NCBI GenBank assembly: GCA_021325275.1
Contig: JAJPHL010000011.1
Span: 186,001 to 250,000 of the forward strand
Origin: Terriglobia bacterium
GTDB taxonomy: Bacteria; Acidobacteriota; Terriglobia; JAJPHL01
Direction: 5' to 3'
Length of the DNA stretch: 64,000 nucleotides
A program made the translations under genes and the position numbers. Of this stretch, positions 3,910-41,690 are shown piece by piece. Every line of letters begins with the position of its first letter. Within the stretch, counting starts at the first letter, position 1. Below the pieces are notes generated by a model. It worked only from the letters and a program-made list of their open reading frames with translations. It was not told the DNA's origin and searched no databases.

Positions 3910-3915
3910 CTTGCG

Positions 3916-5118: not shown

Positions 5119-5127
5119 GAGAACCTT

Positions 5128-5649: not shown

Positions 5650-6161
5650 CAAGCTCCCAAAAACGGCAATCGCACCGACACCGGCAGATTCACGATACCG
5701 AACACGCCGAGCGGAAACGTCATGTCGAGCGGATAGCCCTGCCCAAGATTCGCGACAATGTAATCGGGCGGCGAGCCGCCGTTCTGCGTGTCGCAACTGC
5801 CCGTGCCGGCGCAGGGACACGCGGCGATCGTCGAGGTGGTGGGATCGCCGCGCTCGGCGAAAAAGAAAACCATGCTCGGCGTGAGGTTCGGCACCGTCGG
5901 GTTGCCGGTGCCTTGCAAGTTTCCGAACACCACGAAGTTTGTCGCGTCGGTAAACGCCGGATCGCTCAAATTGCAGAAGTCGACGCCTTGCGTGCGCTGC
6001 AAATACTCGACGCCGGATTTCAAATTGTTTTCGAGTCGGTTGTAGATGTACGCGAGGCGGCCGAGTTCGAAGATTCCGCCGAGCAAAAGAATCATCATCG
6101 GCAGCAGGAACGCGGTTTCCACCGCGGTTTGCGCTTGATCGTTGAGGAGGAAACGCCTCAT
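5649..6161 (-). CDS. tadE: TadE-like pseudopilin (first copy)
   Basis: Start ATG 6161 overlaps the stop of the TadG-like gene by four bases (ATGA). The product has 170 residues: RRFLLNDQAQTAVETAFLLP is the pseudopilin N-terminus (basic leader, AQTAVE with the conserved glutamate, then a hydrophobic helix ending near residue 32). The rest is extracytoplasmic and includes a cysteine-rich loop (ACPCAGTGSCD). With the following gene it makes a TadE/TadF-like pair. Which is formally TadE and which TadF cannot be settled by eye. Confidence 0.85.
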   Translation of the reverse strand: MRRFLLNDQAQTAVETAFLLPMMILLLGGIFELGRLAYIYNRLENNLKSGVEYLQRTQGVDFCNLSDPAFTDATNFVVFGNLQGTGNPTVPNLTPSMVFFFAERGDPTTSTIAACPCAGTGSCDTQNGGSPPDYIVANLGQGYPLDMTFPLGVFGIVNLPVSVRLPFLGA

Positions 6162-8952: not shown

Positions 8953-9821
8953 TAAAAGATATCCTCGGACGCTTTGTTGCCGCGGAAAACCTTGATCACC
9001 ACTTTACCTTCCCTCGGGTCTTTCGGTTTCAGCGGCGCGGCAGGCCCGGCCACAGCCACCGGCTTCGCGACTTCAATCACCTGCGGCCGGACATTTCTCT
9101 CGGGTTCCGCGATACCCAAATCGTCGGCGTAAACTGCCGTGGTTTCCTCTTCCTTGTCGTCGAGCGGATTGCGCAGCGCCAACTGGATCTTGCCGCGCTG
9201 TACGGCCAGCGCGACGCGCTCGGCTTCTTCCTGCGTGACGAGCAGCGTGACCGTGACGCTCTGGCCGGGCGCCGGTTGGGCCTGTTGCTTCGCGTCGCCC
9301 GTGGCGGTACGTTGCAAGTTGCGTCCATACGCCAGCACCGACACGTTTTGTAAAATCGTTGTGGCCGCGGCGTCGCCGTTTTGCAATGAGCGCGTGAACA
9401 ACACGTCGACTTTGCTGCCGGGCTGCACGAATCCCGCCACGCCGATCGTCTCGTTCACCTGCACGCTTACGGCGCGCTTGCCCGGCTCGATCATCGCGGT
9501 CAAGCCTTCCCCGCCCTGCTTCGGCGCGAGTTTCGATTCCAGCACCGGCTCATTCGCTTCGAGTTGAAACAATACGGCCCGGCCAACCGCGTCGGTGCGA
9601 TGCAAGATCGCGCCGGCGGGCAAGTCTTTTCTCGCGACCTCGGCGATCTTCAGGTCGGCGTCCACGATGCGCTGTCCCGCGGGAATCGCGCGAGCCGCGG
9701 CGGCCACTTGGATCACGTCGCGCGACGACGGACTTGTAGCCGAGCGATAGACCATCCACGACACCAAGCCCGCAAAGAGCCAAGCGACGCCGAACATCAT
9801 CCACACGCGTTCACGTGTCAT
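8952..9821 (-). CDS. cpaB: CpaB/RcpC pilus-assembly protein with SAF domain
   Basis: I choose ATG 9821 (MTRERVWMM...), two bases after the cpaA stop, giving 289 residues; a longer form from 9863 would begin inside cpaA. One membrane helix at about 7-24 anchors a periplasmic part. A SAF domain (AARAIPAGQRIVDADL, about 40-105) is followed by the RcpC domain. CpaB proteins act in the periplasm with the CpaC secretin, possibly binding the cell wall. The tail is basic and proline-rich. Confidence 0.9.
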   Translation of the reverse strand: MTRERVWMMFGVAWLFAGLVSWMVYRSATSPSSRDVIQVAAAARAIPAGQRIVDADLKIAEVARKDLPAGAILHRTDAVGRAVLFQLEANEPVLESKLAPKQGGEGLTAMIEPGKRAVSVQVNETIGVAGFVQPGSKVDVLFTRSLQNGDAAATTILQNVSVLAYGRNLQRTATGDAKQQAQPAPGQSVTVTLLVTQEEAERVALAVQRGKIQLALRNPLDDKEEETTAVYADDLGIAEPERNVRPQVIEVAKPVAVAGPAAPLKPKDPREGKVVIKVFRGNKASEDIF

Positions 9822-9823
9822 TT

Positions 9824-10351
9824 TCAGCCTGCTTTCGCGCCAACCCAAATGAACAACAAGCATCCCACGCCGATCACCGCGCCGTACGGCAGCGGTGGTC
9901 CCGCCGATTCCATTTTTCCCGCTTCACTCACGCGCCCGCGCGCCAAGAGTCCCGCTAAGTAGCTCGTGTTTTTCACGACGTGCGAAAAGCGCGATGCCGT
10001 GATGGCGACCGCCAACGCCACGACACCGCCGAACAGTCCGAAATAAATAAGGATGCGCAGGACGCCAAACCATCCGGTGATCGCACCCGCCGCGCCCAGC
10101 ATCTTCACGTCGCCGGCGCCCGTTCCGCCGAGCGCAAAGAACGGAAGCAGAATCGCCACGCCGAGCAAAAGACCTTCCGCGGAATTCGCCGCGCCGTGCC
10201 AACCGCCTGAGTACGAATTCCACGCGAGTCCGGCAGCGGCGGCGGAGAACGTCAGCACATTAGGAATGCGGCGCTTCGCTAAGTCCCACACGCCGCCGAT
10301 GACGGCGAGCGCGAGCAGCAGCAACGTTCCGGGATTCGATAGTGCGGTCAT
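9824..10351 (-). CDS. cpaA: CpaA/TadV-type prepilin peptidase (A24 family)
   Basis: This short (175 residues) polytopic A24 peptidase has the two aspartates of the family: one in GGVWDLAKRRIPN near residue 23 and one in the GxGD motif of GTGAGDVKM near residue 80. It should cleave the leader of the Flp pilin and TadE-like pseudopilins at the inner membrane. It lacks the N-methylase domain of PilD, as expected for Tad-type enzymes. ATG 10351 overlaps the stop of the preceding membrane protein by four bases. Confidence 0.92.
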   Translation of the reverse strand: MTALSNPGTLLLLALAVIGGVWDLAKRRIPNVLTFSAAAAGLAWNSYSGGWHGAANSAEGLLLGVAILLPFFALGGTGAGDVKMLGAAGAITGWFGVLRILIYFGLFGGVVALAVAITASRFSHVVKNTSYLAGLLARGRVSEAGKMESAGPPLPYGAVIGVGCLLFIWVGAKAG

Positions 10352-11877
10352 TCCCCGGCCTTCCTGCGGCAGTAATCACGCTCGAAAATCTCGGCGACGC
10401 GATCGGTGCGCACAACCTTCCACTCCGGCGATGTGTGCAGCGCGGCGGCAAGCGGCTCTTCGGGGCCGATTATCACGTGCGTGACGCCCTCGGAGTCGAG
10501 CACGCGGTCCCAGCCGGGCCGGGCTTCGCGCGCAATGCCATAGCGTGTCAGAAAATCCGCGCCGTAGAAATCACTGCGGCCGTCGATAAAGACTCGCTGG
10601 TGTCCCGCTAAACGATAAATCAGATATCCACCCCACTGATCGGTGGAAAACACGCGCGCCTCAGGGAGGATGGCGGCGCGATCCGCGAAGAATCCCGCGG
10701 CTTGCACCGGAAACGTCTTGGGATCGAAACCGCGATCCGCAGGTTTCTCCGCGACGAGAAGGAATGCAGCAAGCGCCACCGCCGCCATCGCGGGAATCGC
10801 GCCGACAATGCGGCGGTCGATGGCGCGCAAGCGATCGGCGTACTGTGAGTCGAAGCGCAAGCGGCTCGCGGCGAGCGGAAGAATTAGCAACGCGGCGACA
10901 GGCCAGTGGCGCGCGGCGAAAAATCCTTGGTGGATCAGCGCGGCCGTGAGAATCGCGACAGGCCATTCGCGGCGGCGCAACGCATCGATCATGCACGCGA
11001 CGGCGGCCACGATGAATAGCTCCACCCAGATCGCGCCGGAGGCGTGAAAGTCGAAGCTATGGAACTCGCCGATGTGATCCATGATGTAGCTGTCGCGAAG
11101 GTACTCAAAGATGTGTTGATGCAAACGCCATCCATAAGGATTGGCGAACGTGGCGGCGAGGGAAAGCATCGAGGCCAGCAAGTAGTCGCGGCGTCCTGCG
11201 CGACGAAGCGCGTATATAAGAAGGATAGCGGGACCCAAGATAGAACTGCCGTGCATGTTGGCCCACGGGATCGCCAAGGCGGGCAGCAGCCACAAAAGCT
11301 TCCGTCCCGGCCGATGCGTTTCGGCAACCGCCAAGAACGCCAGCGCGAAGAGCCATCCGAAAATATGCGGACGCGCGAGCCAATGAACGCTGGTAACCGC
11401 GAGCAACAAAGCGGCGCTTCCGGCGGCGGCGAAAAAGTTCGCGCCGAGCCGCAACGCCAGCACCGTCGATCCCGCGACGGCCAAAGCGATCGCCAACGCC
11501 GCGAGCAATTCCACACCGCGCAGGCCCGCGGCGCGATTCGCTGCAGCGAACGCGACGTCCGAGAGCCATTCCCACGCCATCCAGGGACGTCCCGCGCGGG
11601 TGAATGAAAAATGATCGCTGGTGGGAACACTGCGCGTTTGGAGGATTGATTCGCCGGTGACGATATGCCATCCCGTATCGCTGTCGCGATAGAGCGCATG
11701 ACCGCCGGCGAAGAATAAAACTTGAAATAAAGTAACGGCGAAGACCGCCGCGCAAAGATTCGGCAACAACCAGCGCGCCACGGGTCCCACGCTCCCCTCG
11801 CGCGGCGACACTCCGTGCCCCACAACGGACGAATCCGTTCGGTGGAGAACGCTCCCGGGCGCGGCGGCAGCGGGCAT
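10348..11877 (-). CDS. Polytopic membrane protein, possibly GT39/ArnT-like, within the tad operon
   Basis: The 509-residue product has about ten predicted membrane helices up to residue ~370 and a soluble C-terminal domain of about 130 residues. A loop after the first helix carries YRDSDTGWHIVTGE, an acidic first loop reminiscent of GT-C glycosyltransferases, and the tail contains DQWGGYLIYRL and a DGRSDFYG motif often seen in bacterial GT-C-like proteins of unknown specificity. It sits 7 bases after the pilin gene and overlaps cpaA, so it is a true operon member. Pilin glycosylation is a reasonable inference but not shown. Not a standard Tad component. Confidence 0.65.
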   Translation of the reverse strand: MPAAAAPGSVLHRTDSSVVGHGVSPREGSVGPVARWLLPNLCAAVFAVTLFQVLFFAGGHALYRDSDTGWHIVTGESILQTRSVPTSDHFSFTRAGRPWMAWEWLSDVAFAAANRAAGLRGVELLAALAIALAVAGSTVLALRLGANFFAAAGSAALLLAVTSVHWLARPHIFGWLFALAFLAVAETHRPGRKLLWLLPALAIPWANMHGSSILGPAILLIYALRRAGRRDYLLASMLSLAATFANPYGWRLHQHIFEYLRDSYIMDHIGEFHSFDFHASGAIWVELFIVAAVACMIDALRRREWPVAILTAALIHQGFFAARHWPVAALLILPLAASRLRFDSQYADRLRAIDRRIVGAIPAMAAVALAAFLLVAEKPADRGFDPKTFPVQAAGFFADRAAILPEARVFSTDQWGGYLIYRLAGHQRVFIDGRSDFYGADFLTRYGIAREARPGWDRVLDSEGVTHVIIGPEEPLAAALHTSPEWKVVRTDRVAEIFERDYCRRKAGE

Positions 11878-11884
11878 GTGAGAA

Positions 11885-12052
11885 CTACAGCGTGCCGAGG
11901 GCCGTCGAAATGCTGGTGAAGACGCTGTTCAAGCCGGTCGCGAAACTTTGCACCGCGGCGACCAACGCGAGCGCGATGGCGGCCACCAGCAGCGCGTACT
12001 CCACGAGATCCTGGCCTTGTTCCTCCGCGATTAGACGACGAAGCAATTTCAT
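11885..12052 (-). CDS. flp: Flp/Fap-type pilin
   Basis: The start at ATG 12052 is preferred over ATG 12070 because the bases just upstream (GGAGGAAAAAGATAAA) form a strong ribosome binding site that the longer form would have to translate. The 55-residue prepilin has a short basic leader (MKLLRRLIAEEQG), then QDLVEYALL with glutamate at +5 after the predicted G/Q cleavage, and one hydrophobic helix. It is the major pilus subunit, to be cleaved by CpaA. The C-terminus (NSVFTSISTALGTL) matches the short Flp class. Confidence 0.93.
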   Translation of the reverse strand: MKLLRRLIAEEQGQDLVEYALLVAAIALALVAAVQSFATGLNSVFTSISTALGTL

Positions 12053-12089
12053 TTTATCTTTTTCCTCCATGATGAAACGTCGATGACGA

Positions 12090-13085
12090 CTACGGATTCT
12101 CCACCTGCGGCAAACGCATCCACTCGCGCGGCGACGGCAACGCCAGCGGCTCGGCGAAGGGTTTTGCGGCCAACCAGTCGCGGCGATCTTGGTCTTTCTC
12201 GAGCAGCAGCTTAAAATTTTCCAGCGCCGGTTCGAACAAATGCTTATTGCGCAGCGCCTCCAAAAGTTCCGCGCGACTTTCTTCCAAACGATCCTGCTCC
12301 ATCAACGCGACCGCGAGATTATTGTGCGCCGTGCCGCGATCCGCGCCTGTTTCTTCAAACACGCGCAACGCCGCGGGACGATCGCCGAGGCGTGCCAGTG
12401 CGACACCTAAATTGTTGCGCGCCGTCGCCGACGCCGGATTCAGTTTCACCGCGTGCCGCAATTCCGCGGCGGCATCGGCGAGCCGCGCCTGCAAGAGCAA
12501 GTTGAAGCCAAGATTGTTGTGCAGCCACGCGGCGTCAGGCTCCATCGCCAGCGCGCGGCGATACAACTTCTCGGCGCCGGCCAAGTCACCGGCGTCATCC
12601 AGCACCGACCCCACTAAGGAAAGCGCCGCGGCGCTATCGCCATGCTTTTCCGCGAAAGCGCGCGCCACCGGCTCCAGGTCGGCGAGTTGTTCAGGATGGC
12701 GGCGCGCCAAATGCGTGAGTCCCGTGAGCGCGTCGATACTTGCTGGATCCAAGTTCCGTGCACGCGTGAACTGATCCAGCGCCAGATCGTCGATGGAATA
12801 GTTCTCGTACGCCCGGCCCAGTTCTACATGTAACGCGGCATCCTGAGGACTTAATTTCAAGCGCGATTCGAGACCTTGCACCGGGCCGCCGGCGCGCGGA
12901 TCGTACGCGCCTTCCGTCTGCTTCTGCACCGCGTCGCGTACCGAATCACCCGGCGCGGATTGCGCGGCCGTCGCGGGAGGCGGGGCGCTCTTCCAGAACG
13001 TCAACGCGCGGCCAAAACGGCTTTGGCACGCCGCCGATGAAATCAGCAACGCTGCCAGGAATGCGATCTGCGAAAGTCTACGCAC
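12090..13085 (-). CDS. TPR-repeat lipoprotein (TadD-like)
   Basis: The N-terminal sequence VRRLSQIAFLAALLISSAAC is a lipoprotein signal with the cysteine as acylation site. I prefer GTG 13085 as start: GGAG lies 7 bases upstream and the reading frame overlaps the DUF192 stop by only 8 bases. ATG 13103 would add six residues. The rest (331 residues in all) consists of several TPR units, seen as repeated LxxxLGxxxxxxGxxxxAxxxF/Y patterns between about 95 and 290. Position and architecture fit TadD, the TPR lipoprotein thought to help secretin assembly in Tad systems. Confidence 0.8.
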   Translation of the reverse strand: MRRLSQIAFLAALLISSAACQSRFGRALTFWKSAPPPATAAQSAPGDSVRDAVQKQTEGAYDPRAGGPVQGLESRLKLSPQDAALHVELGRAYENYSIDDLALDQFTRARNLDPASIDALTGLTHLARRHPEQLADLEPVARAFAEKHGDSAAALSLVGSVLDDAGDLAGAEKLYRRALAMEPDAAWLHNNLGFNLLLQARLADAAAELRHAVKLNPASATARNNLGVALARLGDRPAALRVFEETGADRGTAHNNLAVALMEQDRLEESRAELLEALRNKHLFEPALENFKLLLEKDQDRRDWLAAKPFAEPLALPSPREWMRLPQVENP

Positions 13086-13491
13086 GTTGAAACTCCAGTT
13101 CATCGCCAGGCTCGGTGCCCGTGGCATCCGCCATGCCGGCGGGCAATTCCAACACACTCGACGATCCCCAAACGAGTCGCGTGAGCCGCCACGGACGTAG
13201 CCCGCGATACACGCGCCGCACTTTGCAGACGCGCGTTCGTTGCGCGCGCGCGCCCGGCTCGTCGCGCAATTCCGAAAGAAACACCGCATCGATGGGAAAG
13301 CGCATACCCACGGTGTGAATCGCGAAGGTCGGTGCGATCCACAAACCTTCGCCCGGCTCCATCGACGCGCGATCGAGCAGGCCGACCAAACGCGGCCATG
13401 TCCGATCGGCCACGCGCGCGCGCGCCGCCAACAATCCGCCCTTGGTGCGATTCCGAATGGAGAGATTGAATGCCACAAGCTTCCAGACCAT
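13078..13491 (-). CDS. DUF192 family protein
   Basis: 137 residues with the DUF192 signature: VADRTWPRLVGLL, GEGLWIAPTFAIHTVGMRFPIDAVFL and a C-terminal VLELPAG. DUF192 proteins are small single-domain proteins of unknown biochemical role, often exported elsewhere; this copy lacks an evident signal peptide. It is the first gene of the tad operon, directly downstream of a near-consensus promoter, and its stop overlaps the TPR lipoprotein start. The same pairing of DUF192 with Tad genes occurs in other bacteria to my knowledge, but I cannot state a mechanism. Confidence 0.85.
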   Translation of the reverse strand: MVWKLVAFNLSIRNRTKGGLLAARARVADRTWPRLVGLLDRASMEPGEGLWIAPTFAIHTVGMRFPIDAVFLSELRDEPGARAQRTRVCKVRRVYRGLRPWRLTRLVWGSSSVLELPAGMADATGTEPGDELEFQRA

Positions 13492-13665: not shown

Positions 13666-16600
13666 TTGTTCCGAAATTTTTGTGCGCGCGCCGCCATGGC
13701 GGCCGTTGCCGCGGTCTGGGTTCCAGTGCTTTTGCCCGCGGCCAACATCGGTTCGGTGGTCAGCGTCATCGGTCAAGCCACCGATTTGGTGTACGACAGC
13801 CAGCGCAATCAGGTTTACATTTCGAACCTCACGCAAAACCGGATCGAAGTGTACTCGGTCTCGCAGGCGCGCCTGCTGAATCCCATCAACATCGGCAACT
13901 CACCGGCGGGGCTGGCGATTTCCGCCGACAACTCCACGCTGTACGTCGCCAACAACGTGGCAAACGGCAGCGTGACGCTCGTGAATCTCACAACGCAAGC
14001 GCTGGCCGACGACATTCCCGTGAACGCGCGGCCCGATTCCCTGGCCGTGGGCAACGACGGCAACGTGCTCGTCCTCGGCAGCGCGGGGCTTCAAGTGCTG
14101 AATCTCACGGCGCGCACCGTGACCGCCGTCCCGAACTCTCCCCCAGGTTCGGCCGCCGCGGGACCGTCGCTGGCCGGAACGCTGCCCATTCCCATGGGGT
14201 TCCGCGCGAGTCTCGCGGCTACGCCGGACGGCCGCTTGATTTTCGGAATCTCCACCAACAGTGCGACGGTCAGCCGCGTTTTCGTCTATCAAGTGGCATC
14301 GCAAACCGTGTTGGCCTCGCGCAACGTTCTGGGATTGAACGCCACCACCTCCGCCGCGCCCGACGGATCGAAGTTCATGGTGGGACCGTTCTTGTTCGAC
14401 GCGAACACGCTGGCGATTCTCGGCCGCACCGGATTACCCGCGGCCACGCTCACCGGCGGCAGCGTGTTTTCGCTGGACGGCAACTCGGTGTGGGCCAGTT
14501 TTTCCACGCAGCCGGCGATTTATCCCGCCAATCCGAACAATCCGCAAGTGGCAGGCCAAACGCGTCCCGCCGGCGCGACCATTTCCCTGGGCGTGCTGCA
14601 ACAACTGAAGGCATCGAACCTCGGCGCCAAACTGGGATTGCGTTTGCCCGACAACATCATCGGCAAAGCGATCATGTCGAACGATGGCAAGAACGTTTTC
14701 GCGCTGTCGGCGTCGGGCATGCTCATTGTCCCCGTGGGATCGCTGGCCTCGCAGCCGATCATCGGCGTGACTCAAAACAGTGTGGTGCTCTCGGCGGACA
14801 TCTGTAATCGCGGCGTGCAAACGGCGCAGGTGCAGATCACCAATTCCGGCGGGGGATCGCTCACCTACTCGGCGAACGCCACGGCTCCCACGGGTGCGCC
14901 GCCGGGAACCACTTCGCCCACCGCGATTCTTTCGTCGAACTCGGGAATCGCGCCGGCATCGCTGACCATCACGATGGATCCGCGCTCCGCCAACACCACG
15001 ATCACACCGTCGACGGTGGTGTCGAACGTTACGCTGCTCTCCTCGCAGGCCGTGAACATCGAGCCGACCATCACGGTGAACTTGAACTTCCGCGACGTCG
15101 ATCAAATCGGCACAATCGTGGCGCGGGCCGGAACGTTCACCGACATCCTGGCCGATCCGGCGCGTCCGCGTGTCTATCTTCTAGATAGCCTCAACAATCA
15201 GGTTCAGATTTTCGACACCAGCCAGCAGGCGTTCCTGCCGCCCATCGACGTGGGCGCGTCGCCGCGTTCGATGGCGCTGGCGGGATCGAACACGCTGGTG
15301 GTGGCGAACAGCGCGTCGGAAAACATTTCCGTCGTCGACTTGAATGCGCTCCAGCAAATTCAACTGATTCCGCTGGGGCCTTTCTCACTGATTGCGTCGC
15401 CGCTATTCCCCAACATCATTGCCGCGACTAACAACGCGATTCTCTTTACCACGATTCCGCTCGCCGCCAACGGCGCCACGCCCGGGAATGCCTCACCCGG
15501 CGTTTGGCAGGTGAATCTGGCAAGCAACACGGCGTATCCGCGGCAAAATTTGGGGACACTGAATAGCGTGGCGCAAGCCAATACCACGGATTCGCGCGCC
15601 ATGGTCGTCGCGGCGGGCAATGGATCGGGCGCGATCATCGCCACCACGCTGAACGGCGGCACGCTGATCCTGTACGATCCTTCCACCGACACTTTTCCGC
15701 TGGTAAAAACAGGATTGTTCGCCGCGCTGCGCGGATCGGCGTCAAGCGCGCCCGACGGCAGCTACTACGTGGTGGACAATTCGGTGTACAACAACACGCT
15801 GGCGCTGATCGGCACGATCGCCGCGAATCCCGCGGGAACGGTGACGCAAGGAAGCACGGGCACGGCCACGAATCAGGTTTTCCGCGTGCGCACCGGCGCC
15901 ACAACGCCCGGCGCGGACACGCGCGAGTTTCTGGAGCGGCTCTCCACGTCGTCGCTGACGGCCAATCAATCGTCGGCCATGGTGGAGTCGATGATCAATT
16001 CACCGTACGCGCCGAACGGCACAACGCAGGCGTTGCCGCGCGCCATCACGTTCGATTCGCCCACCGGCAACGCGTACATGCTTACGACCTCGGGCATGTC
16101 GATCATGTCCTTGACCGTGGCGTCGGGCGCGGTTCCTTCGTTCACCGCGAACGGCGTGGTAAACGGCGCGAGTTTCGCACCGCAAAACAGCGTCGCGCCG
16201 GGATCGCTGATCAGCATCTTCGGTTCGAACTTGGGCGCCACCGGCAGTGCGTCCACTACGCCGCTGCCGCTTTCCATCGGCGGCGCCTGCGTCACCGTGA
16301 ACAACACGTCGATCCCGCTGCTCTACGTTTCTCCTACGCAAATCAACGCGCAACTCCCCTTCGCCGTGGCGCCGGGCAACGCGACGGTTGCGATTCGCAA
16401 TCGCAACACCGGCAAGGTTTCAAACGGCGTCACGGTGCGAGTGGTGCAGTCGACGCCGGCGATTTTCACGGCGGTGGATAACATCGGAGAAACGGTGGCG
16501 GCGATCTTTCACGCGTCCAACAACACGCTTGTGACGCCGGCGAATCAAGCCACGCGCGACGAAGTGCTGACCATGTATCTCACCGGACTCGGCGCGGTAA

Positions 16601-16881
16601 CGCCGAGCGTCACGACGGGTGCCGCCACGCCACTCGCGCCACTCTCGGAGACCCCGGCGAAGCCGCAAGTCTGCATCGGGCAATTCAGCAACGGAACGCT
16701 GGAATCGGATTACGTGGTCAGTTTCTCGGGACTCGCGCCCGGCTTCGTGGGACTCTACCAAATCAACTTCACGGTTCCCGGCGACCGCGTGCAGAGCCAG
16801 GCCGCTCCCGTCGTGGTGACCTTGGGAACCAGTTGCAGCACCGCATCCACGGTCGGAGCGCCGGTTACGGCGATTCGCTGA
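13666..16881 (+). CDS. Large secreted beta-propeller-like protein with TIGR03437 C-terminal domain
   Basis: With TTG 13666 as start (GGGAG nine bases upstream) the product has 1071 residues and a signal peptide ending near PVLLPAA. The first ~330 residues contain YVTN-type propeller units (VYDSQRNQVYISNL, LAISADNSTLYVANN); a second set recurs near 480-570 (SPRSMALAGSNTLVVANS). The last ~230 residues are the TIGR03437 domain (NGASFAPQNSVAPGSLISIFG ... LYVSPTQINAQLPF ... LAPGFVGLYQINFTVP). TIGR03437 is a Solibacter-type domain of unknown function found at the end of exported repeat proteins. It is followed after one base by a second giant protein, so the two are co-expressed. Confidence 0.8.
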   Translation: MFRNFCARAAMAAVAAVWVPVLLPAANIGSVVSVIGQATDLVYDSQRNQVYISNLTQNRIEVYSVSQARLLNPINIGNSPAGLAISADNSTLYVANNVANGSVTLVNLTTQALADDIPVNARPDSLAVGNDGNVLVLGSAGLQVLNLTARTVTAVPNSPPGSAAAGPSLAGTLPIPMGFRASLAATPDGRLIFGISTNSATVSRVFVYQVASQTVLASRNVLGLNATTSAAPDGSKFMVGPFLFDANTLAILGRTGLPAATLTGGSVFSLDGNSVWASFSTQPAIYPANPNNPQVAGQTRPAGATISLGVLQQLKASNLGAKLGLRLPDNIIGKAIMSNDGKNVFALSASGMLIVPVGSLASQPIIGVTQNSVVLSADICNRGVQTAQVQITNSGGGSLTYSANATAPTGAPPGTTSPTAILSSNSGIAPASLTITMDPRSANTTITPSTVVSNVTLLSSQAVNIEPTITVNLNFRDVDQIGTIVARAGTFTDILADPARPRVYLLDSLNNQVQIFDTSQQAFLPPIDVGASPRSMALAGSNTLVVANSASENISVVDLNALQQIQLIPLGPFSLIASPLFPNIIAATNNAILFTTIPLAANGATPGNASPGVWQVNLASNTAYPRQNLGTLNSVAQANTTDSRAMVVAAGNGSGAIIATTLNGGTLILYDPSTDTFPLVKTGLFAALRGSASSAPDGSYYVVDNSVYNNTLALIGTIAANPAGTVTQGSTGTATNQVFRVRTGATTPGADTREFLERLSTSSLTANQSSAMVESMINSPYAPNGTTQALPRAITFDSPTGNAYMLTTSGMSIMSLTVASGAVPSFTANGVVNGASFAPQNSVAPGSLISIFGSNLGATGSASTTPLPLSIGGACVTVNNTSIPLLYVSPTQINAQLPFAVAPGNATVAIRNRNTGKVSNGVTVRVVQSTPAIFTAVDNIGETVAAIFHASNNTLVTPANQATRDEVLTMYLTGLGAVTPSVTTGAATPLAPLSETPAKPQVCIGQFSNGTLESDYVVSFSGLAPGFVGLYQINFTVPGDRVQSQAAPVVVTLGTSCSTASTVGAPVTAIR

Positions 16882-16882
16882 T

Positions 16883-19800
16883 ATGCGCGCCCGCAGGCGT
16901 TTTGCCGTGGCAACTTGCGGCGTTGTTGTCTTCGCGGCGATGGCGCACGCGCAATTCGGCGCCGGTGGATTTTCCTTTAGTCCCGGCGGACCGTACGGCA
17001 CGCCGGCGCGACTTTCCTCTGTGGTCTACCAATCCGCCACAAATATCCTTGCGGCGTCGCCGGAAGGCGGCTTGTGGATCACCGCCAACGGCGGCGGCGC
17101 ATGGATCGCGCTTACCGACTCCGCGCCGTCATCGCAGATTTGCACGGTAGTGTACAACGGCAACGCGTTGTTCGCCGGCACCGGCGACGACCTAAGCCTG
17201 CGCGCCAATCCCGGCGTGATGCGATCGCTCGACGGCGGGCAAACTTGGTCGCTGAGCGCGGGATTTTCCACCTACGCGGTGTGCGCGCTCGCCGTCGATC
17301 CCGCGAATGCGCAAGCCCTGCTCGCCGGATCGCTCTCGGGAATCTTCCGCTCCATCGATCAAGGCGCGACGTGGACACAAGTGTCGACGCAACCGGCGCA
17401 AGCGCTGGTTTTCGATCCCGCGGGAAACGGCGTGGTCTATGCATGTTTCAGTTCGCCGGCGTTTCTTACGTCCTCCTCGGCCTCGACCTCGCCGTTGATG
17501 AAGTCGACCGACGGCGGCGTTACTTGGAACGTGGTGCCGATCACCCCGCCGTTTCCGCAATTCAGCGGCGAAGCGCGAACATTCGCGCGCGCCAACATCG
17601 CGCTGGGTGCGGCGGGGACGCTTTATCTCGCCGTCGCGTATCTGGAGACTAAGTCAGTAGGTTCGGTGGACGTTTTTGTCTCGAACGACAACGGCAACAC
17701 GTGGAATGTCACGCAAGGCGCGATCGCGCTGTCGCCGAACGTCGCGGGCACCGGGCGACTGCCGATGTTTTTCGACGCCGCGCGCGGCAACCTTTATATC
17801 GGCGGCGCGACACTTCAAGTTTCCACTGCGGCGGCGCAGACTTTTTCGGCCGTGACATACCCGCCGGTTGGAAACGTGCAAGCGATTTCCGCGAACTTGA
17901 CGCTGAGTCCTCCGGCGTTGCTGGTCGCCGGAGATTTGGGACTTGCCACCATTCCCCTCCCAACGGGAACGGCGGCGGCGGTGAGTAATCCGCCCGTTTC
18001 GTTGCTCGAAAGTTCGGGATTCGATCCCGTGACCGCGCAAAACGAATTTGTCTCCGGCGAATCGGGCCTGTCAATGTACTCGGCGTTCTTCGGCACGTGG
18101 ACCACGCCGATCTCGACGCCGGTGGGATTCACGAGCGCCGTCGCGACGAATCCCGAAGACATTTTCGCGCTCGCCGGCAACGGCACGCTGTACGAATCGA
18201 CCAACGCCGGCGTGAAGTTTTCCAGTTTCACGGCGATTCCCTCGACTGAATCGCACGCGCCGTATCCGCCGCTGATGGGCGATCCGCTGTTGCTCACCAC
18301 GTTGTACACAGCGGGCCAGCGATTCTATCGCTCGACCAACGGCGGACAAACTTGGTCCGCGCTCAGCACCACCATCGATCCGAAGGGCGTCGTAACGGCG
18401 CTCGCTATGTCGCCACTGCTGCGCCAAGTGATGTACGCGGCGACCGCCTGCCTGGGAACTACGGTGCCGCCTGAGTCCACGTGCCCGGCAACCTCGCGCG
18501 TCTACATGAGCACGAACACCGGAACCACATGGACGCTGATGGCCACGGTGTCCGGATACGTTTCGCGGCTCGCCGTCGATCCCGGCGTCGTCACGGCGGT
18601 CTACGCGACAATCGGCGCATTTCCCGGCGGACCGAATCCCGCGGCGGGCCTCGAGGGCGGCGACGTTTTGGTAATCCGATCGACGGGCACAACGTCGACG
18701 CAAACCAGCGTGAAAGGCAATTTGCCAAGCGTGCCGATCAACGCGATTTTGGTTAAAGGAAATTCCGGCCCCATCATCACAACGACCCTCGCGCAAACGT
18801 ATTTCGTGGGCGCGGACACGGGCATCTACGCCACCACCAACGGCGGAATTACATGGATCAACTTGAGTATCGGCCTGCCGCCATCGCCGGTGACCGACTT
18901 GGTGCTGAGCGGCACGACGCTGCATGTCTCGACCTACGGACGCGGCGTGTACACGGCGGATATTTCGCAGATTTCAGCGTCGCTCGTGGCGTCGCCGTTG
19001 AGCGTCAGCGTGACCGTCCAGCAAGGACAAACCGCCAGCGTGCCGCTGACGATCGGAAATTTGGGAACCACGGGTATCAGCTACCAGGTTCAACTGAATA
19101 ATTCCTGGCTCAGCACCACCACGCCATCGGGAACGCTCGGCGCCGGTTCATCGCAAAACATCACGATTAGTGTGAACTCCGCGAGTCTCGCGCCCGGGAG
19201 TTACCGCACCACATTTCAGGTGATTCAAAACGCCGGCGGCACCAACGCGTTTCCGTTTTCGCAGAATATCGCGCTGACGGTGAAAGTAACTTCTCCGCCG
19301 GCGAATCTTGTGGCGGTGTCGGGCGGCGGCGCGACGGTCAATGCGGGATCGCAAGTGACGCTGGTGGCCGAGACGCTCGACGCCTCGAACGCGCCGCTCG
19401 GCGGCGCCTCCGTGCAATTCGCGATCGTCTCGGGCGGCGGCCAGTTGAGCTCGGCTTCTGTTACAACAAACTCGCAGGGGCTAGCCAGCGTGACGCTGAC
19501 GCTGCCTTCGCAGGCGGCCACGGTGAACGTGTCGGCATCGTCGGGAAGTTTGAGCGTCGCATATACGGTGACGGCGGTTGTGTTGCCGGCGCCGACGCTG
19601 AACGCCGGCGCGGTGGTGAACGCGGCGACGTTTGTGGCGGGCGCGAGTCTCGCACCCGGCAGCATCGTTTCGCTTTTCGGAACGCAACTCGCCAACGGAT
19701 TGACGAATGCAGGATCGCTGCCCCTGCCGACGACGCTCGGCGGCACGCAAGTATTGATCAACGGCACGGCGATGCCGCTCTTCTATGTCTCGCTGACGCA

Positions 19801-20296
19801 GATCAACGCGCTGCTGCCGTTCTCCACGGCCGCGGGCACAAATCAGATTTCGGTGAACTATCCGGGACCGAATGGCGCGATCGCCAGCAACGCCGTGACG
19901 ATCAACGTAACGCCGGCCGCGCCGGGAATTTTCGCGGATCCTTCGGGCGCGGGCATTTTCCTGAAGTCGAATAACACGGTGGTGAGCGCCGCAAATCCCG
20001 CGGCTCGCGGTAGTTTCGTCACGTTCTACGCCACAGGACTCGGTGCTGTGTCGCCCGCGGTCCCCGACGGTGCGGCGGCGCCTGCGGCGCCGTTGAGCAC
20101 GGCCGTTGTGACGCCCAGCGTGAACATCGGCGGCGTCGACGCCAGCGTGCAATTCGCGGGACTCGCGCCCGGCTTCGCAGGATTATTCCAGATCAACGCG
20201 TTCGTGCCGGCGTCGATTCCGCCGGACACCAGCACGCCGGTGACCCTCCGCGTAGGATTGCTCGTTTCGAATACGGTCACGTTGCCGGTGAACTAA
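16883..20296 (+). CDS. Giant secreted BNR-repeat / Ig-like protein with TIGR03437 domain
   Basis: 1137 residues starting with a clear signal peptide (VATCGVVVFAAMAHAQ). Residues ~30-690 contain many BNR/sialidase-type turns (SLDGGQTWSL, SIDQGATWTQV, STNGGQTWSAL, TNGGITWINL), which indicate one or two propellers similar to photosynthesis-assembly or VPS10-type BNR proteins. A beta-sandwich (about 700-790, VTVQQGQTASVPLTIGNLG) is followed by a Big_1-like Ig domain (about 810-900) and by TIGR03437 (about 905-1135). No sialidase catalytic set was identified, so binding or adhesion is more likely than catalysis. The start ATG lies directly after the TGA of the previous gene. Confidence 0.8.
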   Translation: MRARRRFAVATCGVVVFAAMAHAQFGAGGFSFSPGGPYGTPARLSSVVYQSATNILAASPEGGLWITANGGGAWIALTDSAPSSQICTVVYNGNALFAGTGDDLSLRANPGVMRSLDGGQTWSLSAGFSTYAVCALAVDPANAQALLAGSLSGIFRSIDQGATWTQVSTQPAQALVFDPAGNGVVYACFSSPAFLTSSSASTSPLMKSTDGGVTWNVVPITPPFPQFSGEARTFARANIALGAAGTLYLAVAYLETKSVGSVDVFVSNDNGNTWNVTQGAIALSPNVAGTGRLPMFFDAARGNLYIGGATLQVSTAAAQTFSAVTYPPVGNVQAISANLTLSPPALLVAGDLGLATIPLPTGTAAAVSNPPVSLLESSGFDPVTAQNEFVSGESGLSMYSAFFGTWTTPISTPVGFTSAVATNPEDIFALAGNGTLYESTNAGVKFSSFTAIPSTESHAPYPPLMGDPLLLTTLYTAGQRFYRSTNGGQTWSALSTTIDPKGVVTALAMSPLLRQVMYAATACLGTTVPPESTCPATSRVYMSTNTGTTWTLMATVSGYVSRLAVDPGVVTAVYATIGAFPGGPNPAAGLEGGDVLVIRSTGTTSTQTSVKGNLPSVPINAILVKGNSGPIITTTLAQTYFVGADTGIYATTNGGITWINLSIGLPPSPVTDLVLSGTTLHVSTYGRGVYTADISQISASLVASPLSVSVTVQQGQTASVPLTIGNLGTTGISYQVQLNNSWLSTTTPSGTLGAGSSQNITISVNSASLAPGSYRTTFQVIQNAGGTNAFPFSQNIALTVKVTSPPANLVAVSGGGATVNAGSQVTLVAETLDASNAPLGGASVQFAIVSGGGQLSSASVTTNSQGLASVTLTLPSQAATVNVSASSGSLSVAYTVTAVVLPAPTLNAGAVVNAATFVAGASLAPGSIVSLFGTQLANGLTNAGSLPLPTTLGGTQVLINGTAMPLFYVSLTQINALLPFSTAAGTNQISVNYPGPNGAIASNAVTINVTPAAPGIFADPSGAGIFLKSNNTVVSAANPAARGSFVTFYATGLGAVSPAVPDGAAAPAAPLSTAVVTPSVNIGGVDASVQFAGLAPGFAGLFQINAFVPASIPPDTSTPVTLRVGLLVSNTVTLPVN

Positions 20297-37153: not shown

Positions 37154-37568
37154 CTAGCTTTCGCCGAGCACCGTCACCACAACCTGGCGCTCGCGCGGGC
37201 GCGAATCGAAATCGCAGAGGACAATTTGCTGCCACTGGCCGATGGCCAGTTGTCCGTCGAAAATCGGAAAGCCTTTGGTCGTACCGACGAGTGAACTGCG
37301 CAGATGCGCGTAGCCGTTGTCGTCGTTCCAGCGCGAATTGTGCGCGTAGTCGTTGGTGGGCGGCGCGATTTGGTCGAGGGCGCGCTGTAAGTCGGCGATG
37401 CAGCCCGGCTCGTATTCAGTGGTAGTGATTCCCAGCGTAGAACCGACGCCCGACACGTTCACGATCCCCTGCTTCACGCCCGACGATGCGCGCCACGTCC
37501 GGCGTGATGTCGATCACGTGGCAGTCGCCGTGTGTCTTCAAGCGAATCGTTTGTTGAAAAACGTTCAT
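37154..37568 (-). pseudogene. Frameshifted YjbQ/UPF0047 family gene
   Basis: The family N-terminus starts at ATG 37568 (MNVFQQTIRLKTHGDCHVIDITPDVARIV), seven bases after the TIGR03435 stop. The conserved continuation (GVKQGIVNVSGVGSTLGITTTEYEPG ... RERQVVVTVLGES) is in a different frame. The two frames meet at a run of three C on the plus strand (37479-37481). YjbQ proteins are about 130-140 residues and act as secondary thiamine-phosphate synthase in vitro. A real indel or a sequencing error are both possible. The downstream part alone has a GTG that could give a 107-residue fragment. Confidence 0.75.
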
Positions 37569-37575
37569 GTGCACC

Positions 37576-38319
37576 TCAGTTTTCTCCAGGCTTCTCGATG
37601 TGGTCCACGACGAGAACGTCGACCATAGCCTTCTGCGGTTCGAGCTTCAAACCAAGCTGCTTCTGAACCGCTTCAAGGATATTGATGTCGCTAGGATCCG
37701 GGTCGGCATCGTTCGCTCTCGTGCGCGGCGTATACGTGAGTTTCAAATCATACGTGCCCGTCAGACCAGTTTGGTCCACGACCGGGCGATCCAAGAAGCC
37801 GGCCTGGAGAAGTTGGCCGACGATGTCTTCCAACGTCGCGGCAACCATTGTGATTTCGTAGTTGCGTCCCACCACATTCAGTCGCGATTGCCACTTCGCG
37901 TCATCGGACGCGGGCTTGAGCTTGGCGCCGGATTTTCCAACGACGAGCCCGTAAACCCGAATTTCCCGCTGTTCATGATGCACCTTCAAATGGAAGCGCT
38001 CCGCGAGCAGGGCTTGCAGCATGGGCCTGAAGTCTGCCTCTTTTAACGGCGTGTCGCCTTCCGCCTTCGCCGCGACATCAAAGTAGGCGTCCTCCCATGG
38101 TCCGAGCGAAGGACCAACCATCTGATAGGGTTTGAGATTGTATGCATACATCACTAAGGCCGGGGTCATGAACGCCTCTAAGGTGAGCCTCGATCCCGAA
38201 ACCTTCACAACATGCTGTTCATGAATTGGCGGAGGATGCACCTTCACCGACGCGACCTCGAACTGTTGGGGCGTCGCCGTTAAAAGCAAGATGAGACTGG
38301 CGATGAGTTGGGGGTTCAT
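37576..38319 (-). CDS. TIGR03435 family secreted protein (second of the pair)
   Basis: 247 residues with a short signal peptide (LIASLILLLTATPQ). Family motifs: FEVASVKVHPP near 20, a SRLTLEAFMTPALVMYAYNL segment, LLAERFHLKVHHEQREIRVYGLVV near 110 and LVVDHIEKPGEN at the end. TIGR03435 is an acidobacterial family of unknown function, typically encoded in many copies. ATG 38319 overlaps the stop of the substrate-binding protein gene (ATGA), so it belongs to the anmK operon. Confidence 0.88.
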   Translation of the reverse strand: MNPQLIASLILLLTATPQQFEVASVKVHPPPIHEQHVVKVSGSRLTLEAFMTPALVMYAYNLKPYQMVGPSLGPWEDAYFDVAAKAEGDTPLKEADFRPMLQALLAERFHLKVHHEQREIRVYGLVVGKSGAKLKPASDDAKWQSRLNVVGRNYEITMVAATLEDIVGQLLQAGFLDRPVVDQTGLTGTYDLKLTYTPRTRANDADPDPSDINILEAVQKQLGLKLEPQKAMVDVLVVDHIEKPGEN

Positions 38320-39791
38320 TTAAGAAAATCGTAGTCGCCGCCGGGTGCGACCGTGACTCCTTTCAGACGCGGCGAGTGTACAACAATGTTGTCGTAATAC
38401 CAAAGGTGCAGATACGGCAAGTCCTGGTTCAAGGTCTTCTGGATTTCCCAAAGTTGCGCGCGGCGCTTGTCGCGGTCCATTTCCTGGCGCGATTGTTCGA
38501 TGAGCGCATCGACGCGAGCGTTCGCGTAGTGCCCGCGATTCGCACCGGCCGGCGGCGTGCGCTTCGAGTGAAAGCAGTACTCGAAAATACCGGGATCGTT
38601 GTTCACGCGAATCCAGCGCAGGGTGTACATCTCGAATGCACCTTTCACGATGTCGGAGTAAAACGTGGCGAATTCGTTCGACCGTAATTCCATCGCGATG
38701 CCTACGTCGCGCAGTTGCTGCTGCACCACCGCCGCGAGTAACCGGCTGGTTTCCTCCGTGGACGTCTTCATGGTCAGGCGCAGACGCACGCCGTCGGGAC
38801 CGGGGCGAAATCCCGCGGCGTCGAGCAGCGCGCGGGCCCGCGCGGGATCGTGCGGATACGTAGCAGCGCCGGGGCAGAACGCCCAATGATTCGGCGGCAG
38901 TACGCTCGACGCCGGCCGCGCCTGATTGCGCCAGAGATATTCGATCATCGGCTGGCGGTCGATGGCGTGGGCAAGCGCCTGGCGAACTTCCACGCGCGCG
39001 AGAACAGGGTCGCGCATATTCAGCGCGATGTATTGATACACCGTGCCGGGCGATTGCGTTACCTGCAAGCGAGGCTCGCGTTCGAGGGCGCGCACCATGT
39101 CGGCCGTCAGTGCGTTGATCTCGACGTCGGCGGAACCCTTGCGTAATTCGAGCGCGCGAACGGTGGTGTCGGGTGCGACTTTGAATCGGACGCGTTTCGC
39201 GCCGCGCTCCAGAAGGACGTACTCATCGGTCGATTCGCCGACGAACCGAAATGGTCCCGAGCCGATCGGCGCGCGTGCCAACTCTTTTCCGGCGCCATTC
39301 GGAACGATGCCGATCGCGCCCTGCGAAACGCTCGCGAGAAATCCAGCGTCGGGCTGCTTGAAATGGAAGATCACCACACGATCGTTGGGCGTTTCAATGC
39401 CTGAGATTCCCCGGAAGGTCGAGGCTTTGGTGCTCGTTACCGTGCCGTCGAGAATGCTTTCGAATGTGTACCGTACATCCCGCGAAGTAAGCGGGCGGCC
39501 ATCATGGAATTGCGCGTTTCTCAGGTGAAAGACGCACGTGAGCGGATCGGGAACCTCCCAGCGTTCGGCGAGCGCCGGCCGTTGCTCGAACGTGTCGTCC
39601 AATTCCACCAGCGGATCGAAAATCAATTGGTTGATTCGCTCCGATTGCGCGTCCGACTCGATACGCGGATCGAGCGCCGTGGGGCTGCTTTCGATGAGGA
39701 ACACAATCTCGCCAGGCTGGTGCGCGCCACCGCATCCGGCGAGCAACGCCGCGCCCGCCGTGGCGAGAAATCCGCGGCGGCTACTTCGCAT
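38316..39791 (-). CDS. Oligopeptide-type ABC substrate-binding lipoprotein (SBP_bac_5)
   Basis: 491 residues starting at ATG 39791, which overlaps the end of anmK by 11 bases. The signal has a twin-arginine pair and a lipobox (SSRRGFLATAGAALLAGC). The remainder has the cluster-C solute-binding fold of DppA/OppA/MppA: ALAERWEVPDPLTCVFHLR near 80, FHDGRPLTSRDVRYTFE near 105 and YLHLWYYDNIVVHSP near 465. No permease or ATPase genes are adjacent. With anmK next to it, a muropeptide or anhydro-muropeptide ligand is an attractive inference, similar in idea to MppA. Confidence 0.88.
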   Translation of the reverse strand: MRSSRRGFLATAGAALLAGCGGAHQPGEIVFLIESSPTALDPRIESDAQSERINQLIFDPLVELDDTFEQRPALAERWEVPDPLTCVFHLRNAQFHDGRPLTSRDVRYTFESILDGTVTSTKASTFRGISGIETPNDRVVIFHFKQPDAGFLASVSQGAIGIVPNGAGKELARAPIGSGPFRFVGESTDEYVLLERGAKRVRFKVAPDTTVRALELRKGSADVEINALTADMVRALEREPRLQVTQSPGTVYQYIALNMRDPVLARVEVRQALAHAIDRQPMIEYLWRNQARPASSVLPPNHWAFCPGAATYPHDPARARALLDAAGFRPGPDGVRLRLTMKTSTEETSRLLAAVVQQQLRDVGIAMELRSNEFATFYSDIVKGAFEMYTLRWIRVNNDPGIFEYCFHSKRTPPAGANRGHYANARVDALIEQSRQEMDRDKRRAQLWEIQKTLNQDLPYLHLWYYDNIVVHSPRLKGVTVAPGGDYDFLK

Positions 39792-40872
39792 AACAGATTT
39801 TGCCGAGGATCGCCGGACGCTTGGCGCCGGTGGCCGAAGGAATATTCGAAGGACGGCGATGAAATGTTTCGTAGGCGAGTAGCGCGAAGAGCACCGCCTC
39901 CTTGGCGTCGCCGGAAAGATCAAAGTCCTCCGCGCGCAACACGCGGACGCCGGGCAATTCGGCCTTCAGTAGCTGCATCAGAAACTCGTTGTGGACGCCG
40001 CCGCCCGACACCACGAGATCGTCGCAGTGCTTGATTGCTTGCGCAATGGTCCGCGCGGTGAGCGCGGTAACGGTTGCGAGCAAATCTCCTTTGGCCAGTC
40101 CTCGCGAAAGCAGCGCCTCGACGAACTCGCGGCCGTATTGCTCGCGCCCCGACGTTTTCGGTGGACGCCTCGCGTAGTAGCGATCGCGCATCAACTCCGC
40201 CAGCAGCGCGGAATCCACACGCCCGCGCGAGGCCCACACGCCGCCGCGATCGTATTTGCGCTTCCCGCCGGAGAATCGCTCGATCAATGCATCGATCACC
40301 ATGTTGCCCGGCCCGGTGTCGAACGCGATCACCTGATCGGCGCGCGCGCTGGCGGGAATCACCGTGATGTTCGCGATGCCGCCGATATTGAGCGCCACAC
40401 GCTTGCGGCTCGGATGGCGATATAGCAGGAAATCGAAAAACGGCGCGAGCGGCGCGCCCTGACCACCAACGGCCATGTCGGCGACGCGAAAATCCCCGAT
40501 GGTGGTGACACCGCTGCGCGCGGCAATCACCGCGGGCTCGCCGATTTGCAGCGTGGAGGCCGGCGCCAGTCCCTGATGAAAAATGGTTTGACCGTGCGAG
40601 CCAATCAGCGCCGGCGTGCGTTTGCCGCACACTTTCGCAACGGCGGCTGCAAACGCCTCGCCGATCGCGAAATTCAGCGCGCTGATTTCCGCCACCGCAA
40701 TCGACTTCGCGTTCGACGCCTCCAGAATCCGCCGGCGGAGGGCGCGCGAGTACGGAACGGTCGCGAATTTCTGCACGCCGAGACGCGCTCGCGCGCCGCG
40801 TCCGGAAATCTCCACCAGCGCGACATCAATTCCGTCGGCAGATGTTCCGCTGATGAGTCCGGCAACCCGCAT
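39781..40872 (-). CDS. anmK: Anhydro-N-acetylmuramic acid kinase
   Basis: The 363-residue product opens with MRVAGLISGTSADGIDVALVE, the ATP-binding signature of AnmK, and contains IGSHGQTIFHQ near 92, NIGGIANITVIP near 161, FDTGPGNMVIDAL near 183 and VVSGGGVHNEFLM near 286. AnmK cleaves and phosphorylates 1,6-anhydro-MurNAc to MurNAc-6-P in cell wall recycling. Start codon and the stop of the upstream TIGR03435 gene share one base. Etherase MurQ was not found in the window. Confidence 0.95.
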   Translation of the reverse strand: MRVAGLISGTSADGIDVALVEISGRGARARLGVQKFATVPYSRALRRRILEASNAKSIAVAEISALNFAIGEAFAAAVAKVCGKRTPALIGSHGQTIFHQGLAPASTLQIGEPAVIAARSGVTTIGDFRVADMAVGGQGAPLAPFFDFLLYRHPSRKRVALNIGGIANITVIPASARADQVIAFDTGPGNMVIDALIERFSGGKRKYDRGGVWASRGRVDSALLAELMRDRYYARRPPKTSGREQYGREFVEALLSRGLAKGDLLATVTALTARTIAQAIKHCDDLVVSGGGVHNEFLMQLLKAELPGVRVLRAEDFDLSGDAKEAVLFALLAYETFHRRPSNIPSATGAKRPAILGKICYAK

Positions 40873-41690
40873 TAATTTGCCGTAGGACGCTCGGCGCGGT
40901 CGATGACCAGCGTGTCGACCATCGCGCGCGTCGATTCGATTTTCAAACCGAGTTGCTGTTGAATGGCCGTAAAGAGTCCCGGCTTCGGCGCGTTGTCGGG
41001 GCGTGGCAGCGCGCCGGCCATAACGGCTTCATCGGGAGAAAACGCCAGATCGAAATCGTAGCGGGCCGCCAAGCCGGTATGGTCGACCACGGGATCGTCC
41101 AGCATGGCGCGCTGCATCACCCCCGCCAGTTCGGCCATCGTCGCGCTGCGGGCGGGCAAGCGAATCTCGTCCGGCGCGACCACGAAGATCAAAGGCGGCG
41201 GTCCTTCCGGCGTCGCGTCCGGCGAAACGGTCGTCTCTTTCAACTTGGGTCCGCCCTTGGCGACCGTGAGCACATAGGCGCGCATTTCCTTTTGCTCGCG
41301 ATGAAAGGTGAGACTGAACCGGTCGTTGAGGAGTTTTCGGAGCATGGCCATTTGCTCGTTGAGATTCGGCCGCACTGACCCCGGCGTTCGCGCGACGATG
41401 TCGTAACGATCGTCATTGACCCACGACGCCCCGCCCGAAATGGCTTTGGGACTGACATTGTAGGCCGCGGCAATGAGCGTCTTCACCGAGTGATTCCGCG
41501 CCGCCAACTCGTTCGCGCTCAGCATCCTGATCCAGCGGCCTTGATAGGCGGGGTCCGCCAGTTTGATGGTCGCGACTTCGAATTCATCGAATTTCGGCCG
41601 TGTCTCTTGGCCCGGCGGCGCCGTTTGCGCAGCGATCGAGATCGCTGCCAGGAAAACTATGGCGGCGGTTCGTTTGATAATTGACTTCAT
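40872..41690 (-). CDS. TIGR03435 family secreted protein (first of the pair)
   Basis: 272 residues from ATG 41690, which has GGAGAGGT directly upstream. A signal peptide (SIIKRTAAIVFLAAISIAAQ) leads into FDEFEVATIKLADP, a VKTLIAAAYNVSPKAISGG segment, RKLLNDRFSLTFHREQKEMRAYVLTV and the terminal TLVIDRAERPTAN, all diagnostic of TIGR03435. Function unknown. It is the first gene of a five-gene operon with anmK, a binding lipoprotein, a second TIGR03435 gene and the broken yjbQ. Confidence 0.88.
   Translation of the reverse strand: MKSIIKRTAAIVFLAAISIAAQTAPPGQETRPKFDEFEVATIKLADPAYQGRWIRMLSANELAARNHSVKTLIAAAYNVSPKAISGGASWVNDDRYDIVARTPGSVRPNLNEQMAMLRKLLNDRFSLTFHREQKEMRAYVLTVAKGGPKLKETTVSPDATPEGPPPLIFVVAPDEIRLPARSATMAELAGVMQRAMLDDPVVDHTGLAARYDFDLAFSPDEAVMAGALPRPDNAPKPGLFTAIQQQLGLKIESTRAMVDTLVIDRAERPTAN

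Follow-up and report, generated by a model that had tools for sequence, protein, structure and literature searches.

In the 64,000-nt stretch of DNA analysed here (the window; contig JAJPHL010000011.1 of a Terriglobia bacterium), a five-gene operon on the minus strand contains anmK, the gene of anhydro-N-acetylmuramic acid (anhydroMurNAc) kinase (39781–40872), and a gene of the SBP_bac_5 family for a substrate-binding protein (SBP) lipoprotein (38316–39791). Comparative genome analysis indicated that this lipoprotein is probably the receptor of a split ATP-binding cassette (ABC) importer of muropeptides, which would do the job of the permease AmpG, and that the anmK-SBP pair is part of a conserved recycling set. 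A wider reading is also favoured, with a little less assurance: an as yet unrecognised split ABC importer would serve wall recovery in much of Terriglobia, its receptor being encoded after anmK and its permease, DppBC, beside a corC-like gene; AmpG would have displaced this permease in its own slot, perhaps more than once in one genus, and the unlinked receptor would have decayed. As outlined in part of PMC9790009, few lineages of AmpG-less Gram-negative bacteria (Alphaproteobacteria) have a known path for the import of wall fragments, and a search of the open-licence literature for Acidobacteriota gave no report of such a system. With the proposed importer, a receptor and a permease can be named as candidates in a widespread soil group, and the natural gene replacement points to what the two do.

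The sample of the class consisted of 200 Terriglobia genomes, with the SBP called at E 1e-60. Of these, 179 had anmK and 88 had the SBP. The SBP gene was located directly downstream of anmK, on the same strand and at a distance of −8 to 855 bp, in 63 of the 64 genomes with both genes listed; in the exception (G023), the two genes were on different contigs and anmK was about 600 bp from the contig end. The other 24 SBP genomes were eight of family f3 without detected anmK and 16 without a listed anmK row. Of the 78 loci with enough sequence, 64 had mutS no more than three genes upstream of anmK, and 16 had nagZ no more than two genes upstream. Some genomes had the cluster mutS-nagZ-anmK-SBP; the pair of the window adjoined neither mutS nor nagZ. 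The only other examined genome of the window's order had mutS-nagZ-anmK (L111), with the contig ending 193 bases on, and no SBP match. Judged from gene order, the best explanation is that a murein-recycling set conserved in Terriglobia, and arranged as mutS-[nagZ]-anmK-SBP in relatives, includes the anmK-SBP pair of the window. A DUF1697 gene was observed between anmK and the SBP gene of G053 (L206:7231-7794, minus strand).

The site of the permease genes was identified in genus g6 (19 genomes). Seven of these genomes (G063, G105, G145, G149, G057, G121, and G153; L244–L248, L250, and L254) carried corC-ampG at a site unlinked to anmK. samAT followed ampG directly in L244, L245, and L247, and was found further along in L246 and L248; in L250 and L254 it fell past the end of the contig. 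The names corC and samAT are to be taken loosely, as the proteins scored below the cut-offs of the CorC-type and S-adenosylmethionine-hydrolase models. The displacing protein belonged to the AmpG family, with 429 bits against the AmpG model (cut-off 350). In G063 and G121, remnants of dppB separated corC from ampG; remnants of dppC came after ampG in G063, G145, and G057, so that four of the seven genomes retained traces of the pair. The same remnant queries, used as a control, gave zero matches in 1.13 Mb of other loci. It was predicted that G005, which is SBP-positive and AmpG-negative, would have an intact dppBC between corC and samAT, and this was found in that one genome (L316: corC 15545–16933, dppB 17121–18041, dppC 18038–18907, and samAT 19109–19903 on the other strand); no SBP or ATPase was flagged in the stretch of about 20 kb holding this dppBC. 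Family f10 loci (L256–L261), chosen for having dppB and informative on arrangement, not frequency, had dppB beside corC in five of six and dppC near by in five of six, and all six genomes had the SBP. From these loci, ampG took over the chromosomal position of dppBC in some genomes of the genus, changing corC-dppB-dppC-samAT to corC-ampG-samAT.

The SBP gene was lost or damaged at a different site in the same genomes. The anmK site read mutS-anmK-SBP-(sua5-like) in eight genomes without AmpG over the cut-off (L317–L324), the sua5-like gene, named by eye, being truncated in L322 and lacking a gene call in L323. At the anmK site of G063, G145, G153, G057, and G195, gene calling gave no SBP, the reading of this site excluding G105 and G149; tblastn revealed SBP remnants beside anmK in G145, G153, and G195, and also in G121. 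One of the two SBP-positive ampG genomes was G121, in which the SBP gene was broken into three pieces not sharing one frame. When partial ampG genes were included, the SBP gene was missing or broken in eight of the nine ampG-bearing g6 genomes. Comparison of the loci showed that the SBP gene is linked to anmK, that the permease genes were replaced in place, and that the SBP gene, unlinked to them, decayed in the genomes concerned.

The following course is proposed for the importer. The SBP lipoprotein would capture wall fragments in the periplasm, most likely anhydro-muropeptides, and would pass them to an orphan DppBC pair encoded elsewhere, beside the corC-like gene in relatives and on contig C57 in the window genome. 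An unlinked ATPase of DppD/F type is the candidate to power transport by DppBC. Once in the cytoplasm, the fragments would be cut by NagZ and amidases to release anhydroMurNAc. In the established pathway, AnmK phosphorylates anhydroMurNAc, and MurQ then takes off the lactyl group. The split importer would do the job of AmpG, which has replaced it in place in part of one genus. Transport, the ligand, the docking of the SBP on DppBC, and the ATPase are the parts of this proposal that we infer. The earlier note on this DNA had suggested that the lipoprotein could capture muropeptides; this gained support from the linkage to anmK, the presence of nagZ in some loci, and the replacement of the permease by AmpG, and the muropeptide ligand stays a prediction.

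The inventory of the window genome revealed one AnmK match and one MurQ over the cut-off, beside a GH3-beta-lactamase fusion, and there was no match to AmpG (TIGR00901) at E 0.001. Four SBP_bac_5 matches and 13 binding-protein-dependent permease domains were found. Since no permease or ATPase adjoined the anmK-linked SBP within the window, this SBP would have to borrow a permease. A homologous dppBC pair was present on contig C57 (L201), cut by the contig start and with no corC beside it. A Dpp permease pair on contig C62 was rejected as the partner of the SBP: its dppB was found in 57 of the 200 class genomes (E 1e-35) and, judged by eye, did not track the SBP. The C62 pair lay near yvcK (UDP-N-acetylglucosamine-binding) and a gene that by eye resembled glmU (L199:1495-6671, minus strand). 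On contig C13 (L203:3343-9555), murQ was accompanied by the gene of a secreted-looking GH3 (NagZ-like)/beta-lactamase fusion, and an SSF symporter was encoded close by on the opposite strand; this locus is a possible second route for wall sugars.

Several results weigh against the proposed importer. AmpG passed the cut-off in 19 of the 200 class genomes, and there was no class-wide anti-correlation with the SBP, which was present in 8 of the 19 AmpG-positive vs 80 of the 181 AmpG-negative genomes (p = 1.0); mutual exclusion across the class was not found. Six f3 genomes carried both the SBP and AmpG, without detected anmK. Within g6, the SBP was found in 2 of 7 AmpG-positive vs 9 of 12 AmpG-negative genomes (p = 0.07), and in 2 of 9 vs 9 of 10 when the two partial AmpG genes of G153 and G195 were counted (p = 0.005), the p values being descriptive more than tests as these genomes are related and not independent. 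G177 kept an intact SBP alongside AmpG. tblastn gave no trace of the SBP gene in G063 and G057, and the ampG sites of G105, G149, and G153 yielded no remnant of dppBC. A candidate ATPase partner for the SBP and DppBC was not found, and the ligand is putative. The MutS tree of g6 speaks for the importer, as the AmpG label had to change three times and well-supported branches forced two or more of these changes. Gains, losses, or passage of the segment from one relative to another would each account for them, so that the replacement is only perhaps a repeated one. Families f4, f5, and f12 had many members with anmK, no SBP row listed, and no AmpG over the cut-off; other import routes therefore exist.

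The binding site of the SBP was examined for the nature of its ligand. Asp408 of DppA and its equivalents in OppA and MppA contact the free amine of the peptide. In 63 rows of anmK-linked SBPs, which include near-duplicate loci, the equivalent column held Ala in 32, Gly in 24, Asp in 5, Val in 1, and Ser in 1, and the SBP of the window had Val. Absence of the Asp fits a ligand with a blocked L-Ala amine, as in anhydroMurNAc-peptides. Against this, five of the 63 rows retained Asp, and receptors for other ligands could lack it too. The structure model of the SBP (predicted local distance difference test score, pLDDT, 72; predicted template modelling score 0.51) gave a root-mean-square deviation near 21 in the comparison, and its overall arrangement was unreliable. 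The modelled fold confirmed the broad family only, with dipeptide, glutathione, nickel, oligopeptide, and MppA receptors unseparated.

One alternative keeps the same machine and changes the ligand, which would be free murein tri- or tetrapeptide without sugar, in the manner of MppA, with the sugar for AnmK arriving by another route. This explanation overlaps with the importer of anhydro-muropeptides. MppA was among the structures matched by the SBP, both by sequence and by fold, and family f3 is in its favour as well, since anmK was detected in none of its 11 genomes and the SBP was kept in eight. The substitution of the amine-contacting Asp by Ala or Gly in 56 of the 63 rows, and by Val in the window, speaks against a free peptide, and this alternative is considered unlikely.

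A second alternative holds that the SBP and DppBC import something else, such as ordinary peptides, a metallophore, or glutathione; AmpG would have landed in the slot by chance, the SBP would have decayed for want of its permease, and the linkage to anmK would be an operon of convenience. Nickel, glutathione, and dipeptide systems were among the nearest curated models of the SBP and the permease, none of them reaching its cut-off; this agrees with such a cargo and detracts from a muropeptide importer, as do the class-wide counts and the six f3 genomes with both transporters. Against an operon of convenience stands the linkage to anmK in 63 of the 64 genomes. Furthermore, in family f3, in which AmpG exceeded the cut-off in 9 of 11 genomes, a NagZ-like gene (named by resemblance) directly preceded the SBP in six of the seven loci read (L191–L197), all from genomes without detected anmK; one such gene was confirmed as GH3, with 205 bits against the NagZ-type model (cut-off 207). 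The gene that displaced dppBC also belonged to the AmpG family of muropeptide transporters. Import of a different cargo is for these reasons judged rather improbable, and the muropeptide importer is retained as the preferred explanation.

The last alternative, proposed in the earlier note, that the TIGR03435 proteins encoded on both sides of the anmK-SBP pair are exported partners in murein recycling or murein predation, was rejected as highly improbable, given that no copy was found in 102 other anmK loci, that no murein family recurred among the commonest families next to own-genome copies, and that the two copies of the window were not sisters. The order of the window was conserved in its anmK-SBP part and not in its TIGR03435 part. 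No TIGR03435 was detected with a two-sequence profile, at E up to 10, in six-frame open reading frames of 80 GTDB anmK loci, or with a larger profile in the 102 distinct anmK loci (1.47 Mb; 16 loci whose anmK was missed by a simple gene caller are left out, and the count is not weighted by the abundance of TIGR03435 there). The bracketing of the pair by two TIGR03435 genes is real; it is less remarkable in a genome with 53 matches over the cut-off, some in tandem. By tree distance among 49 copies, the two proteins of the window were each other's eighth nearest one way and 14th nearest the other way.

For the survey of neighbours, 50 TIGR03435 genes were called in the window and in stretches of its own genome, and their neighbours up to two genes away were collected, except those cut by a stretch end. 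Of these 156 neighbours, 150 were scanned, the six in the window being omitted. Families were read from the 25 commonest per batch, out of 91, 67, and 103. The recurring ones included MacB/FtsX (7 proteins), BlaI (5), response regulators (4), PadR (3), and TPR proteins, and single matches included MreB and a SIS-domain protein; no murein enzyme family recurred among the families covered. Tight co-transcription with anmK and the SBP gene would favour a role as partner, as would the fusion of 4 of the 50 own-genome copies to M56 peptidases of BlaR1 type, a family that senses wall-active antibiotics. These points left the outcome unchanged: no association of the TIGR03435/DUF3738 family with murein was found in this analysis, and the family is removed from the murein story. 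TIGR03435-A, TIGR03435-B, and yjbQ look like co-transcribed bystanders of the murein function.

Other searches on this family gave little. The pLDDT of an AlphaFold model built on the sequences of both window copies was 31, a scan of viral contigs revealed no relative, and full-text search of the open-licence literature for TIGR03435 or DUF3738 by name returned no paper. DUF3738 may still be an STN/secretin-like domain, although a lax Pfam scan of the 50 copies gave no support for this guess. Six TIGR03435 genes were observed in one stretch of contig C43 (8500-21199; L164), one of which, of 610 amino acids, overlapped a gene of about 130 amino acids. Long TIGR03435 proteins in L162, L177, and L186 overlapped similar genes of about 130 amino acids, and BlaI repressors and M56 fusions occurred in these sets.

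Among known systems, the closest case is YejBEF-YepA, in which the receptor gene also lies apart from the permease in a bacterium without AmpG: in the portion of PMC9790009 concerned with Agrobacterium tumefaciens, the SBP YepA is encoded apart from the permease YejBEF and serves muropeptide import with no AmpG. The same portion reports that some species carry both YejBEF-YepA and AmpG, that YepA is exclusive to Alphaproteobacteria, and that E. coli K-12 ampG reverses the effect of an importer deletion in Agrobacterium. By analogy, the Terriglobia system may work like YepA-YejBEF, of which it is only a candidate member. It was set apart from that system because the permease type and the gene context differ: a DppBC pair is the candidate for the permease, and the SBP gene comes after anmK. 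The candidate DppB proteins scored 151 and 139 bits against the YejB model (cut-off 445), too low for the YejB type, and their best model was Opp2B, just below its cut-off.

MppA-OppBCDF of E. coli is similar in that, by the K-12 annotation, an SBP_bac_5 receptor is encoded apart from the permease it uses. However, MppA keeps the amine-contacting Asp where the SBP of the window has Val, and anmK was not a neighbour of mppA in the part of K-12 that was read. AmpG (TIGR00901) is inferred to perform the same task and occupies the slot of dppBC in g6 genomes; unlike the split importer, it is a permease of the major facilitator superfamily without an SBP and is not homologous to the ABC parts.

The operon of the window reads, in order of transcription, TIGR03435-A, anmK, the SBP gene, TIGR03435-B, and yjbQ/UPF0047, the last being the gene left unnamed in the earlier note. 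TIGR03435-A (40872–41690, ATG at 41690) had 217.6 bits and TIGR03435-B (37576–38319) had 218 bits against TIGR03435 (cut-off 40), so that both flanking proteins are members of the family. AnmK passed the cut-off of the curated equivalog NF007148 (469.6 bits; cut-off 387) and matched PF03702; its solved relatives included levoglucosan kinases as well as AnmK, and the gene context favours AnmK specificity. The SBP gene (ATG at 39791), encoding the candidate muropeptide receptor, had 256.7 bits against PF00496 (cut-off 32.4), and a Cys was read by eye in the motif LLAGCGG close to the N-terminus. The genes overlapped by 1, 11, and 4 nt along the operon, followed by a gap of 7 nt before the ATG of yjbQ at 37568, which bore out the earlier description of overlapping or nearly touching genes; because of these overlaps and the short gap, the five genes are very likely co-transcribed. 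A scan for promoters and terminators gave a result at chance level.

yjbQ (37154–37568, minus strand) had 97.6 bits against UPF0047 (cut-off 27), with PF01894 and TIGR00149 matching on 37154–37477. Its N-terminus was in one frame, from 37568, and the remainder in another, with the break near 37480; the gene is either frame-shifted, as a pseudogene, or mis-assembled. On the upstream side, the operon was flanked by divergent genes reading as rimP, nusA, and infB (named by eye), and on the downstream side by a DUF480/yceH gene on the opposite strand. Elsewhere in the window, the genes at 646–13491 (minus strand) resembled a Tad/Flp pilus cluster, as judged from the protein N-termini alone.

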